64,000 bases of DNA, taken from the NCBI GenBank assembly GCA_018064755.1, contig JAGHUP010000001.1, positions 1 to 64,000 of the forward strand, written 5' to 3'. Below, in pieces: positions 10,190-63,090 of the stretch. Within the stretch, counting starts at the first letter, position 1. Every line of letters starts with the position of its first letter. The position numbers and the translations under genes were made by a program. Origin of the DNA: Candidatus Crickella equi (GTDB lineage: Bacteria > Bacillota > Clostridia > Peptostreptococcales > Anaerovoracaceae). The notes under the pieces were generated by a model. It worked only from the letters and a program-made list of their open reading frames with translations, was not told where the DNA came from and did no database searches.

Positions 10190-10420
10190 AATCCCTCCTT
10201 CTTAATTGTTATGAGCAAAGAATGGACAACCCGGAGGGGCAGGTTACTTACCACGATAATTCGTGACGGCCGGGCTACCTACCGGCTCTGGCATGCAAAA
10301 GCACACGTTGCGTTTTTATCTCTGCGATTAATATATAATCAGACCTTACGGTCGGATTTACAAATTCAAATTTATATGTCTAAATACTACACGATTTCGG
10401 TATCATTTGCCATTGCCATC
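10190..10420 (-). ncRNA. Candidate yjdF-type (azaaromatic) riboswitch
   Basis: ~230-nt leader directly upstream of yjdF with paired segments (TCCGACCGTAAGGTCTGA; GCCGGTAGGTAGCCCGGC; CACGAATTATCGTG; CCTGCCCCTCCGGG). No covariance search run. Confidence 0.6.
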
Positions 10421-59027: not shown

Positions 59028-59795
59028 TTAGAATGTTTCGAGTTCGTTGAATTTGTGGAGGAGCTGTTCAACTGTCAGCTTCTTCTTTTCTTCGCCTCTT
59101 ACATCGAATACTACCGCTCCCTCATGCATCATGATAAGTCTATTACCATAGTCGATTGCATTCTGCATGTTGTGAGTAACCATCAAAGTTGTGAGGTTGT
59201 GTTCCTTAACGATCTTGTCTGAAATCTCGAGTACTACTGCTGCTGTCTTAGGGTCAAGGGCTGCGGTATGCTCGTCGAGAAGGAGCAACTCCGGCTTCTT
59301 GATTGTAGCCATGAGCAGTGTGATTGCCTGACGCTGTCCGCCTGAGAGCAGACCTACTTTGGTCGTAAGTCTATCCTCAAGACCAAGGCCGAGCTTGGCA
59401 AGCTGAGTCTTGTAGAGCTCAAGTTCTTCGCCCTTAGGCATTCCCCACTTGAGGGTGTGCTTGTTGCCTCTTCTGTATGCGAGGGCAAGGTTCTCCATAA
59501 TCCACATATTAGGAGCGGTTCCCATCATAGGATCTTGGAAAACGTGTCCGATGTATTTTGCACGCTTAACTTCGTGCATAGTTGTGATGTCTTTGCCGTT
59601 CAGTACAATACTACCTCCATCCGGAATGATGGATCCTGCTACTGTGTTCAGCATTGTTGATTTGCCGGCGCCGTTGGAACCGATGACTGTTACAAAATCG
59701 CCATCTTCAACTGTAAGGTTAAGATCCTTGAAGATCTTATTCTCGTTGATTGTTCCTGGGTGGAATGTCTTCTGTAAATGTTCAATTTTCAGCAT
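59028..59795 (-). CDS. ABC transporter ATP-binding protein (TrpZ-like)
   Basis: VIGSNGAGKSTMLN; LLSGGQRQAITLLMA; LLLDEHTAALDP. Confidence 0.93.
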   Translation of the reverse strand: MLKIEHLQKTFHPGTINENKIFKDLNLTVEDGDFVTVIGSNGAGKSTMLNTVAGSIIPDGGSIVLNGKDITTMHEVKRAKYIGHVFQDPMMGTAPNMWIMENLALAYRRGNKHTLKWGMPKGEELELYKTQLAKLGLGLEDRLTTKVGLLSGGQRQAITLLMATIKKPELLLLDEHTAALDPKTAAVVLEISDKIVKEHNLTTLMVTHNMQNAIDYGNRLIMMHEGAVVFDVRGEEKKKLTVEQLLHKFNELETF

Positions 59796-60722
59796 TTATT
59801 CCACCTCCTTAGCGGCCTTCTTAGAGTTCTTCTTGCGGCCTGTCTTAGCCTGCCATGCAGGAATTGCAAGGGCGAATGCTACGATTACAGCTGTGATCAG
59901 CTTGAGGTCTGTAGCCTTCATCCAAGGCAGTGTGAGTGCCAGTGCAATGATAGTTCTGTAGATAATTGCACCTGCGGATACCGCTGCCATCTTAAATCCA
60001 AAGTTTCTTTCTTTTCTTACAAAGATAACTTCACCAATGATTACTGAAGCAAGTCCGATTACGATGGTACCCTGTCCCATATTAACGAGAGCTGAACCAT
60101 AGTCAAACTGCGCAATCAAACTGCCTGCGAGCGCAACGAGTGCGTTGGATACTGCCAAGCAGAGGTTAATCATAGTGTCTGTGCTGATACCGAGCGCTCT
60201 TGCCATCTTCTGGTTGGAGCCAGTTGCACGAACAGCGCAGCCAAGCTCTGTTCCGAAGAAGTAGTACAGCAGCTCGATGATAATGAAGCACATTACCAGT
60301 CCAACTACAATTGAAATTGTGTTAGGTGATGTTCCTGCTGGGAACAAATCGGTAATCATTGTCTTGAATGAGTCTGCTGACAAAGCAACCGTCGCCTTGT
60401 CGCTCATGATTCGGATGTTGACCGAGTACAGAGCGATTTGCGTGAGGATTCCCGCAAGGATGGCAGGAATTGCGAATTTGGTATGAAGAATACCTGTTAC
60501 AAGACCTGCAACCGCACCTGCAAGAATACAGATTAACATTGCTAGCATTGGGTTCATTCCATTGTTAATCAGAACTACAGTAATTGCAGCTCCGAGAGGG
60601 AATGTTCCCTCAATTGTTAGATCCGGAATATCTAGCACTCTGAAAGTGAGAAATACTCCAATAGTCAGGATGGCCCACAATAGGCCTTGTGCTATTCCCG
60701 ACTGTATAGTTGCCATTATCAT
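59796..60722 (-). CDS. ABC transporter permease (TrpY-like)
   Basis: Multi-TM; IPDLTIEGTFPLGAAI; GCAVRATGSNQKMARALGI. Confidence 0.9.
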   Translation of the reverse strand: MIMATIQSGIAQGLLWAILTIGVFLTFRVLDIPDLTIEGTFPLGAAITVVLINNGMNPMLAMLICILAGAVAGLVTGILHTKFAIPAILAGILTQIALYSVNIRIMSDKATVALSADSFKTMITDLFPAGTSPNTISIVVGLVMCFIIIELLYYFFGTELGCAVRATGSNQKMARALGISTDTMINLCLAVSNALVALAGSLIAQFDYGSALVNMGQGTIVIGLASVIIGEVIFVRKERNFGFKMAAVSAGAIIYRTIIALALTLPWMKATDLKLITAVIVAFALAIPAWQAKTGRKKNSKKAAKEVE

Positions 60723-60725
60723 TTA

Positions 60726-61721
60726 TTACTCTCCCATTCTCTCTGCTCTATCCAGAATGCTCTGTGGTACATCAAGACCAAGAGCTGCTACGCTTGCCAT
60801 ATTGATTGCTGTTACACATTCCTTAGTCTGGAATTCTACAGGCATCTTAGCGATTTCAGCCAGAGGATCATCAGACTGGAGCAGTTTAACTGCCATTGCT
60901 GCAGTCTGCTTTCCAAGCTCTGTGTAGTCAATACCGAATGTCAGAGTTGCACCGTTTTCAACCATTCCTGGCTCTCCGCATACGATAGGGAGACCAACGC
61001 TATTAGCTGTCTCGGATACGAGTGCCATTGCATCGGATACTGTATTGTCTGTAGGAACATAGATGCAATCTACCTGACCCTTGAGAGACTCAATTGCTGA
61101 CTTTGCCTCATCAACAGTTGAGATTGTCTTCTGTACACATTCCATTCCATCCTTCTCAATCTGAGCCTTAGCGAGTTCGTACTGAGCTGCTGAGTTGGAC
61201 TCTGATGAGCAGTAGAATACTGCAACCTTCTTAGCCTTAGGCAGGAGCTCCTTAATAAGGTCAATCTGCTCTGCAACTGGGTTCATATCTGATGTGCCTG
61301 AGATGTTACCACCAGGTTCTTCGTTGCTAGCAACGAGCTGGGATGCAACTGCATCTGTTACTGCACTGAAGAGTACAGGAATGTCTGTAGTCTTTTCCTT
61401 CATTGCGCTTGCGGATGGAGTTGCAATTGCAAAGACTAAATCCGATTCATCATTGATAAGTGTGTCTGCGATTGTTGGACAGTTTGCTGTATCTGCTGCA
61501 GCAGACTGCATGTTAATTTTGATATTCTCGCCATCCTTGTAACCAGCCTCTTCAAGGCCTGCTACAAATCCATCGTAGCAGTTCTGCAGAGCTGTGAACT
61601 CTCCGAACTGCATAACGCCGATCTTAATCTGATCGCCTGAATCTGATGAGTCGCTACCGCCACAAGCAGTCAGCGAGAATACCATCAATACTGATAACAT
61701 AAGTGCTAAAAACTTCTTCAT
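60726..61721 (-). CDS. ABC transporter substrate-binding lipoprotein (TrpX-like)
   Basis: Lipobox MVFSLTACGG; IKIGVMQFGEFTALQNCYDGFVAGLEEAGYKDGENI. Confidence 0.92.
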   Translation of the reverse strand: MKKFLALMLSVLMVFSLTACGGSDSSDSGDQIKIGVMQFGEFTALQNCYDGFVAGLEEAGYKDGENIKINMQSAAADTANCPTIADTLINDESDLVFAIATPSASAMKEKTTDIPVLFSAVTDAVASQLVASNEEPGGNISGTSDMNPVAEQIDLIKELLPKAKKVAVFYCSSESNSAAQYELAKAQIEKDGMECVQKTISTVDEAKSAIESLKGQVDCIYVPTDNTVSDAMALVSETANSVGLPIVCGEPGMVENGATLTFGIDYTELGKQTAAMAVKLLQSDDPLAEIAKMPVEFQTKECVTAINMASVAALGLDVPQSILDRAERMGE

Positions 61722-61733
61722 AAAACCCTCCCC

Positions 61734-61775
61734 GGGGTCGGTCCTACTGTCCTCTGTGAAAGAGGACTGACCCCC
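61734..61775. repeat. G-rich palindromic repeat immediately upstream of the substrate-binding gene
   Basis: Minus strand GGGGGTCAGTCCTCTTTCACAGAGGACAGTAGGACCGACCCC. Confidence 0.75.
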
Positions 61776-61779
61776 TTAT

Positions 61780-61815
61780 TAAAATAAAAATACCCCGTAG
61801 CTCATTGCTACGGGG
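61780..61815 (-). terminator. Attenuator terminator
   Basis: Minus strand CCCCGTAGCAATGAGCTACGGGGTATTTTTATTTT. Confidence 0.88.
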
Positions 61816-61867
61816 CTGATTAACGAATTAATTATTACGGTAAATCTTCACATAGCAAGCATCGTCT

Positions 61868-61927
61868 TCAATTGTTGAAGCCGTAATAATAATAGTAGTT
61901 TGCTCTGTGATTAATACGATTTAACAT
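61868..61927 (-). CDS. Tyr-rich leader peptide MLNRINHRANYYYYYGFNN
   Basis: SD AAGGAG 7 nt before ATG; codons TAC TAT TAT TAT TAC; stop TGA; followed by terminator. Confidence 0.88.
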   Translation of the reverse strand: MLNRINHRANYYYYYGFNN

Positions 61928-61992
61928 AATACATCTCCTTGATAAGATGTCACAATTTTACAGGAAAAATTTGTGAAAGTCAACGAATTTTA

Positions 61993-63090
61993 CTATTTTA
62001 TCCAGTCTTTAAACTGCTCACAAGCTAGCTCTATAAGCTTGTCCATGAGTTCTGGAGTTGGTACTCCGTCGTGTCTCCACAGCATTGGATACATTGAGAT
62101 ATTAGTGAAACCTGGAAGAGTGTTAATCTCATTGAATACTACTCTGGACCCGTTTACTTCAACGTCTGAATAGAAGAAGTCAACTCTTGCGAGACCTCTG
62201 CAGTCGAGAATCTTATACAGCTTAACTGCATAATTCTTAATCTCCTCAATTTCTTCTGTTGGCAGGTCTTCAACAATGCTAGTCTGAATCTCAGGATTCT
62301 TGTACTTGGCATCATAATCATAGAACTCTGCTGCTGCCCTTATTTCTCCAACTGATGAAGCTACTGGCTCTAGGTTGCCGAGAACTGCAACTTCGAATTC
62401 TCTTCCTATTATAGCCTTCTCTACGAGAACTTTGTGGTCATACTTGATTGCTTCGTCGATAGCCGCTTTGAGCTCTTCAGCCTTGTGAACCTTGGTAACT
62501 CCAACGGATGAACCTGCTGCAGATGGCTTAACGAATAGTGGCATATATCCACCAAGTTCATCGAGAGCCTTCTTGACCTGACCTTCTGTATCCTTCATGT
62601 AATTGGCAATTCTAACCACATAGTCATCAGCCATTCTAACGCCTGTCAGTTTAGCAAGTTGCTTGGCTGCTGTCTTATCCATGCAGTTAGCACTGGCCTT
62701 TACTCCAGATCCAACAAATGGAATCTCTGCCATCTGGAAGAGTCCCTGGATTTCTCCATCTTCTCCATGGTCTCCATGCAGAATAGGAACGATGCAGTCG
62801 AGCTTAATTAGCGAAGTCTTTCCCTCTTCATCGAACACCAAGAGTCCACCGTAGTTAGGATCTGCCGGCAGTGCACAACGCATTTTGTCTTTGCCGTTAA
62901 TCCAATTGCCGTTCTCAATCTCTTCAACGCTGGCACCAGTAACATACCAAGCGCCACCCTTGGTCATTCCAATTTGAACTACGTCGTACTTCTCTCTATC
63001 AAGAGCGCGAAGTACGTTGGCTGCCGAACACAGTGATACTTCATATTCGTCGGATTTGCCTCCGAATACTACTCCAATCTGTTTCTTCAT
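61993..63090 (-). CDS. ddl: D-alanine--D-alanine ligase
   Basis: IGVVFGGKSDEYEVSLCSAANVL; VKPSAAGSSVGVTKV; FNEINTLPGFTNISMYP. Confidence 0.95.
   Translation of the reverse strand: MKKQIGVVFGGKSDEYEVSLCSAANVLRALDREKYDVVQIGMTKGGAWYVTGASVEEIENGNWINGKDKMRCALPADPNYGGLLVFDEEGKTSLIKLDCIVPILHGDHGEDGEIQGLFQMAEIPFVGSGVKASANCMDKTAAKQLAKLTGVRMADDYVVRIANYMKDTEGQVKKALDELGGYMPLFVKPSAAGSSVGVTKVHKAEELKAAIDEAIKYDHKVLVEKAIIGREFEVAVLGNLEPVASSVGEIRAAAEFYDYDAKYKNPEIQTSIVEDLPTEEIEEIKNYAVKLYKILDCRGLARVDFFYSDVEVNGSRVVFNEINTLPGFTNISMYPMLWRHDGVPTPELMDKLIELACEQFKDWIK

Follow-up and report, generated by a model that had tools for sequence, protein, structure and literature searches.

On the minus strand of the window, as we call the whole stretch of 64,000 nucleotides analysed here, lies an ABC importer operon whose three genes were assigned by profile searches:

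60726 to 61721, minus strand: PF04392 ABC substrate-binding lipoprotein (SBP), TrpX-related
59796 to 60722, minus strand: ABC permease (PF02653)
59028 to 59795, minus strand: ABC ATPase (PF00005)

The SBP passes the gathering cut-off of PF04392 (243.5 vs 25.9 bits), in agreement with the family named in the preliminary description of this DNA, and it lies below the cut-off of the NCBIfam TrpX equivalog (NF041285; 284.5 vs 390 bits). The operon's upstream neighbour, a D-Ala-D-Ala-ligase-like (ddl-like) gene, has the same orientation and ends at 61993, 10 nt before the -35 element of the leader described below.

Anatomy of the leader

From 61983 down to 61783, the minus strand reads in order as a promoter-like site, a Shine-Dalgarno (SD) sequence, an ATG, the leader MLNRINHRANYYYYYGFNN, a stop, a terminator and a T-rich tail. 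The elements are the following:

61955 to 61983, minus strand: sigma-70-type promoter-like site TTGACT-17-TAAAAT (motif scan, 10/12 matches)
61935 to 61940, minus strand: SD sequence AAGGAG of the leader ORF (sequence read)
61868 to 61927, minus strand: leader peptide ORF MLNRINHRANYYYYYGFNN, 19 codons, with the stop UGA included (sequence read)
61900 to 61910, minus strand: segment 1, UCACAGAGCAA, partner of segment 2, predicted to be masked when the ribosome stalls at the Tyr codons (ribosome-mask folding)
61883 to 61897, minus strand: five Tyr codons UAC UAU UAU UAU UAC, the predicted stall site (Tyr runs kept in orthologues)
61848 to 61858, minus strand: segment 2, UUGCUAUGUGA, which pairs either with segment 1 or with the terminator 5' arm (ribosome-mask folding)
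61831 to 61840, minus strand: CCGUAAUAAU, earlier proposed as partner of the Tyr block, paired with the start-codon region in the minimum-energy fold (folding)
61805 to 61812, minus strand: CGUAGCAA, stretch of the terminator 5' arm that pairs with UUGCUAUG in the antiterminator (folding)
61793 to 61815, minus strand: intrinsic terminator CCCCGTAGCAATGAGCTACGGGG, then the T-rich tail at 61792-61783 (terminator scan, dG -17.1)

Direct reading and the terminator scan thus recovered the SD sequence, the Tyr-rich ORF, its stop and the terminator, all of which had been noted before on this strand. Transcription would start at about 61948, and translation of the leader would run from the ATG at 61927 to the UGA at 61870-61868, through five consecutive Tyr codons and then a single Phe codon. 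A whole-genome search for the pattern SD-ATG-TyrTyrTyr returned the leader and four other sites, none of them with a longer in-frame Tyr run. The leader fold is better than 200 of 200 shuffles (z -3.97), and the terminator scan of the leader stretch gave one terminator against 0.4 expected. No match to the T-box (RF00230; stem I, specifier and T-box sequence) was obtained in the window or in the 82%-complete genome, and the covariance models of the Rfam Trp, His, Phe, Thr and Leu leaders gave none at the gathering score in the window.

Alternative folds and the proposed switch

Ribosome-mask folding, in which the transcript was grown to the terminator loop and the ribosome was either placed at Tyr1-Tyr5 or left off the RNA, gave a computed probability of pairing between segments 1 and 2 of 0.85 in the free RNA and of 0.00 with the stalled ribosome. 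Before the 3' arm of the terminator is made, the computed probability of the antiterminator rises from 0.09 in the free RNA to 0.95-0.96 with the ribosome at Tyr1-Tyr5, and the stall-minus-free difference was equalled in 3 of 150 shuffled window leaders. The antiterminator pairing with the terminator 5' arm had been foreseen in the preliminary description and is supported by the computed folds, but its size differs: the sequence carries the complementary pair TTGCTATG (61858-61851) and CGTAGCAA (61812-61805), and the helix UUGCUAUG:CGUAGCAA has 8 bp rather than 6. The Tyr block had been taken as one strand of the switching stem, with CCGUAAUAAU (CCGTAATAAT in the sequence read, at 61840-61831) as the other; the two are complementary, but their pairing has a probability of 0.00-0.01 in every ribosome state, and it is the codons before the Tyr block that form the switching stem.

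We consider it very probable that this locus is a ribosome-mediated (leader-peptide) transcription attenuator, which responds to the supply of charged tRNA-Tyr and governs an ABC importer whose predicted substrate is tyrosine. With enough tyrosine, the ribosome would finish the 19-codon leader and depart, segment 1 (the codons before the Tyr block) would pair with segment 2, and the terminator would form and end transcription. If charged tRNA-Tyr runs short, the ribosome would stall on the five Tyr codons and mask segment 1; segment 2, thereby freed, would pair with the terminator 5' arm during its transcription, and RNA polymerase would continue into the transporter genes. In the complete transcript at equilibrium the computed probability of the terminator is 1.00 in every ribosome state, and the switch must therefore be kinetic and operate during transcription. 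When the ribosome was placed right on the stop codon and pairing across it was forbidden, so that only the downstream RNA was folded, segment 2 was free with a probability of 0.74; termination in the cell would consequently rely on ribosome release or timing, or on the ribosome not yet having begun translation, and this dependence on release or timing is the weak point of the model.

Tyrosine and phenylalanine leaders among the orthologues

SBP orthologues were collected and the 400-500 nt upstream of each were read for ORFs of 8-45 residues that follow an SD sequence and contain four or more Tyr in five, dinucleotide shuffles serving as the control. Such Tyr-run ORFs lie upstream of 8 of the first 73 orthologue loci, against 0.025 expected, and no other residue was comparable to Tyr in the same test (Leu 2 vs 0.35, Arg 2 vs 0.58). 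Further searches yielded about 20 tyrosine leaders, together with several phenylalanine or mixed ones; mixed Phe/Tyr leaders occur in L099, L100, L104 and L193-L195. Tyrosine leaders include:

L031: MRNLNMNFGYYYCLSQVDRCTTLG, SBP 72%
L032: MTNSRKYYYYYCYAQVDRCCTSLD, SBP 70%
L121: MKRRFFYYYYYYFSPAVECCAANI, SBP 66%
L122: MKNRFYFYYYYFRDAAKRCTADTL, SBP 64%
L034: MKSVARAYAYYYYYDAAVVRCCALL, SBP 61%
L071: MFTYTYYYYYYIGDLMMR
L108: MKTTALLNSKTYYYYYSLYI
L192: ...ALYYGYYYYYFRAPKK

Intrinsic terminators follow nearly all the Tyr-run leaders, and the order leader-terminator-transporter is kept. Together with the switching fold, these Tyr-rich leaders and their terminators support the earlier reading of a Tyr-codon leader peptide with transcription attenuation. 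That the leader might be a low-complexity ORF arisen by chance, with the hairpin as the mere terminator of the ddl-like gene, is suggested by the closeness of this gene on the same strand and by the ease with which TAT repeats may arise in A+T-rich DNA, but it is hardly credible in view of the excess of Tyr-run loci over expectation, of the constant order of the elements in orthologues and of a window fold that switches beyond its shuffles. The Tyr leader is not universal among orthologues: close ones without such a leader in the 330-500 nt upstream are L094-L096 (~61%), L033 and L058 (57%) and L035 (53%). The Tyr-containing ORF of L055 was judged unconvincing as a leader.

The Tyr and Phe blocks are exchanged between tandem paralogues. 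The second, tandem SBP gene of L032 (L032_2) has its own leader, MRNCTKFSFSFNFTFFFTQVDRCCTSLG, whose Tyr/Phe block is swapped relative to MTNSRKYYYYYCYAQVDRCCTSLD, and its RNA can be aligned with the Tyr leader of L032 outside the codon block; the alignable part takes in both the terminator and the antiterminator element AGGTGGATCG. A Clostridioides-like genome (G121, a single contig of 4.26 Mb) has two tandem permease-ATPase-SBP operons with the leaders MKTLLNKQVRFFSSQFS (operon 1) and MNTLLNNKKYYYYYSHYF (operon 2), which have a common RNA frame and differ in the codon block; as these operons begin with the permease, their leaders were located by scanning for Tyr runs:

L199:5836, plus strand: Phe leader
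L151:2602, plus strand: Tyr leader

In the Tyr operon (operon 2), the sequence of the first SBP agrees almost throughout with that of PDB 6hni, and this SBP is thus a near-identical CD0873. A further genome (G339) has three paralogues, each with a different upstream element: a leader rich in Phe at L107, a Tyr leader at L189 and a T-box for Trp at L167.

Macrolide (erm-type) leaders operate in a comparable manner, and any slow ribosome on the leader ORF would release segment 2, so that the ORF might sense the general speed of translation or a ribosome-targeting drug rather than tRNA-Tyr. The enrichment specific to Tyr, the Tyr-to-Phe codon swap in paralogues, the T-boxes of the same specificity in homologues and the amino-acid importer encoded downstream all speak against such a sensor, which we regard as highly improbable, and for an attenuator responding to charged tRNA-Tyr.

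At least three different switch designs occur among the leaders. The leaders of L031, L032, L032_2, L121 and L122 have their antiterminator element within the ORF, directly behind the Tyr/Phe block, and folding indicates that a ribosome reaching the stop blocks the antiterminator pairing; the stall-minus-stop difference was equalled in 1, 5, 1, 4 and 8 of 150 shuffles, respectively. In family f4 the leader has a his-like chain of helices, A:B, B:C, C:D and D:D', and in L151 the computed probability of the antiterminator is 0.00 in the free RNA, 0.78-0.90 with the ribosome stalled and 0.30 with the ribosome at the stop. In L107, L189, L002, L104 and L100 the switching was not significant in the shuffle test, and the mechanism is therefore putative in these five leaders.

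The alignment of orthologous leaders, which the preliminary description had named as a check, bore out the Tyr runs and gave covarying stems in nine aligned leaders of a distant group, the window leader itself being weakly alignable. In these nine, with shuffles that ignore relatedness, B:C pairs in 90.9% of cells (covariation 0.319 vs 0.207 shuffled, 0/500), C:D in 94.2% (0.333 vs 0.242, 0/500) and D:D' in 98.6% (0.189 vs 0.136, 14/500), and A:B is paired in 90% but shows no double changes; sliding the helix partners by 1-3 columns abolishes the signal. The covariation supports the mutually exclusive helices B:C, C:D and D:D' in these distant leaders. One conserved structure for the window leader and those of L031, L032 and L034 was tried and rejected, and as the window leader aligns only weakly with these three, covariation is not claimed for its own stems.

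Substrate, T-boxes and known systems

The CD0873 protein of C. difficile (PDB 6hni; PMC6816091) has tyrosine bound in its crystal structure and proved specific for this amino acid in thermal-shift experiments, with a Kd of 94 uM. The same paper associates the pocket residues Glu-263 (which contacts the hydroxyl) and Tyr-279 with tyrosine, the pair Ala/Tyr with phenylalanine and Ala/Gln with tryptophan. The window SBP is homologous to CD0873 (E 4.3e-62) and has, in the alignment, the same two selectivity residues, Glu and Tyr. Glu and Tyr are found in all 22 of the 22 SBPs behind Tyr leaders, and Ala in 15 of the 18 behind Trp T-boxes; most SBPs that follow a Phe leader or a Phe T-box have Glu as well. 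The pocket thus disfavours tryptophan and fits tyrosine, with phenylalanine remaining compatible, and the residue was rejected as a Tyr/Phe discriminator because Glu is common to both groups.

The homologues carry T-boxes with the specifiers UAC, UUC or UGG (Tyr, Phe, Trp), some read from alignments and others, less certainly, by pattern, in keeping with the earlier remark that the phylum mostly uses T-boxes for this task. In a quick tree of 95 SBPs, several branches of which are weak, the UGG T-boxes make up two branches and the Tyr/Phe T-boxes and Tyr/Phe leaders are mixed elsewhere; two leader loci (L002 and L104) are nested in a Tyr/Phe T-box group. The substrate of the window transporter is probably tyrosine, judged from sequence comparison: the CD0873 copy behind a Tyr leader, the T-box specifiers of homologues and the pocket residues would agree, indirectly, with the earlier preference for tyrosine over tryptophan, the Trp T-boxes standing on separate branches. 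Broader sensing of Tyr and Phe, or a transporter that also carries phenylalanine, the Tyr codons being a convenient proxy, would be in line with the mixed Phe/Tyr leaders, with the Phe T-boxes on close branches of the tree and with the Glu-263 equivalent of most Phe-regulated SBPs; we hold it unlikely, since in the window leader a single Phe codon comes after an unbroken run of five Tyr codons, and since paralogue pairs keep the Tyr and Phe blocks apart.

Under strict filters, and with many incomplete genomes, 0-3 T-boxes per genome were counted in the genus of the window (g1, G001-G035), against 7-26 in the other sampled families of the order. With 15 T-boxes each, the genomes of L005 and L006 nevertheless have a Tyr leader at the transporter, so that the absence of T-boxes is not a condition. 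Taken together, the leaders probably form a family of Tyr/Phe-codon attenuators that controls PF04392 aromatic importers in several families of Bacillota and has been repeatedly exchanged with T-boxes of the same specificity; duplicated importers would have been re-addressed between Tyr and Phe by a swap of the codon block with the switching RNA unchanged, including the Clostridioides-like CD0873 operon and its neighbour.

The trp, his and phe attenuators of Proteobacteria (Rfam Trp_leader, His_leader and Phe_leader) likewise combine a short ORF bearing a run of regulatory codons, alternative helices, an intrinsic terminator and downstream genes of biosynthesis or supply, but here the codons are for tyrosine, the operon encodes a transporter, the genome is of Bacillota, the sequence is unrelated and none of these Rfam families scores above its threshold. 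In Firmicutes, leader peptides are described for histidine (hisS/hisZ and his operons; PMC2965389, PMC9413887), where leader-peptide attenuation also stands in for the T-boxes of relatives, with histidine and other genes instead of tyrosine and phenylalanine. The uORFC-13-1 motif upstream of aroF in Acholeplasma (PMC8632094) is a predicted uORF with Phe codon(s) and a terminator before an aromatic amino-acid gene; it differs in its amino acid (Phe), its DAHP synthase gene and its structure. The T-box of trpXYZ, as for TrpX of Streptococcus suis (PMC9382623), controls a homologous ABC importer by antitermination on uncharged tRNA, but its RNA binds the tRNA directly, with no ribosome, and its specifier is UGG (Trp). 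The G121 leader of the CD0873 copy is his-like and differs in fold from that of the window, and the control of the CD0873 operon seems untreated in PMC6816091.

Tyrosine has been assigned to T-boxes in Firmicutes (PMC1262725). We found no tyrosine leader peptide in the open-access literature (subscription papers lay mostly outside the search), and priority can therefore not be claimed; the mechanism is known in Firmicutes for His, and the Tyr/Phe version would be the new element. As leader-peptide attenuation in Firmicutes is documented mainly for histidine, the Tyr/Phe branch fills a gap, its leader codons provide substrate predictions for transporters annotated as tryptophan or sugar transporters, and the Tyr/Phe swap in tandem paralogues amounts to a natural codon-replacement experiment. 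The tyrosine importer CD0873 of Clostridioides is linked to p-cresol production, and for CD0876 the published proposal is tyrosine (PMC6816091); the Phe leader of G121 predicts phenylalanine for the neighbouring CD0876-like protein.

Other elements were noted in passing. Between the terminator and the SD sequence of the SBP gene, a second strong hairpin, GGGGTCAGTCCTCTTTCACAGAGGACAGTAGGACCGACCCC (61734-61774, minus strand; single copy in the genome), is a possible mRNA 5' stabiliser or translation control, and the window also carries an azaaromatic (yjdF) riboswitch at 10206-10329 on the minus strand (72 bits vs a cut-off of 45). In L037, L039, L041 and L044, where neither leader nor T-box was seen in the upstream regions, a conserved AGTAGYATGGTAGYACGGTAGGG block stands shortly 5' of the SBP gene. 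The WEFFYF-type ORFs of L003 and L008 were judged unconvincing, their regions carrying repeated UAG/GUAG triplets instead; upstream of the SBP homologues of L003, L004, L008, L009 and L153, repeated (G/U)AG triplets precede a terminator, and this arrangement, reminiscent of TRAP binding sites, may represent a further control route for the same transporter family.
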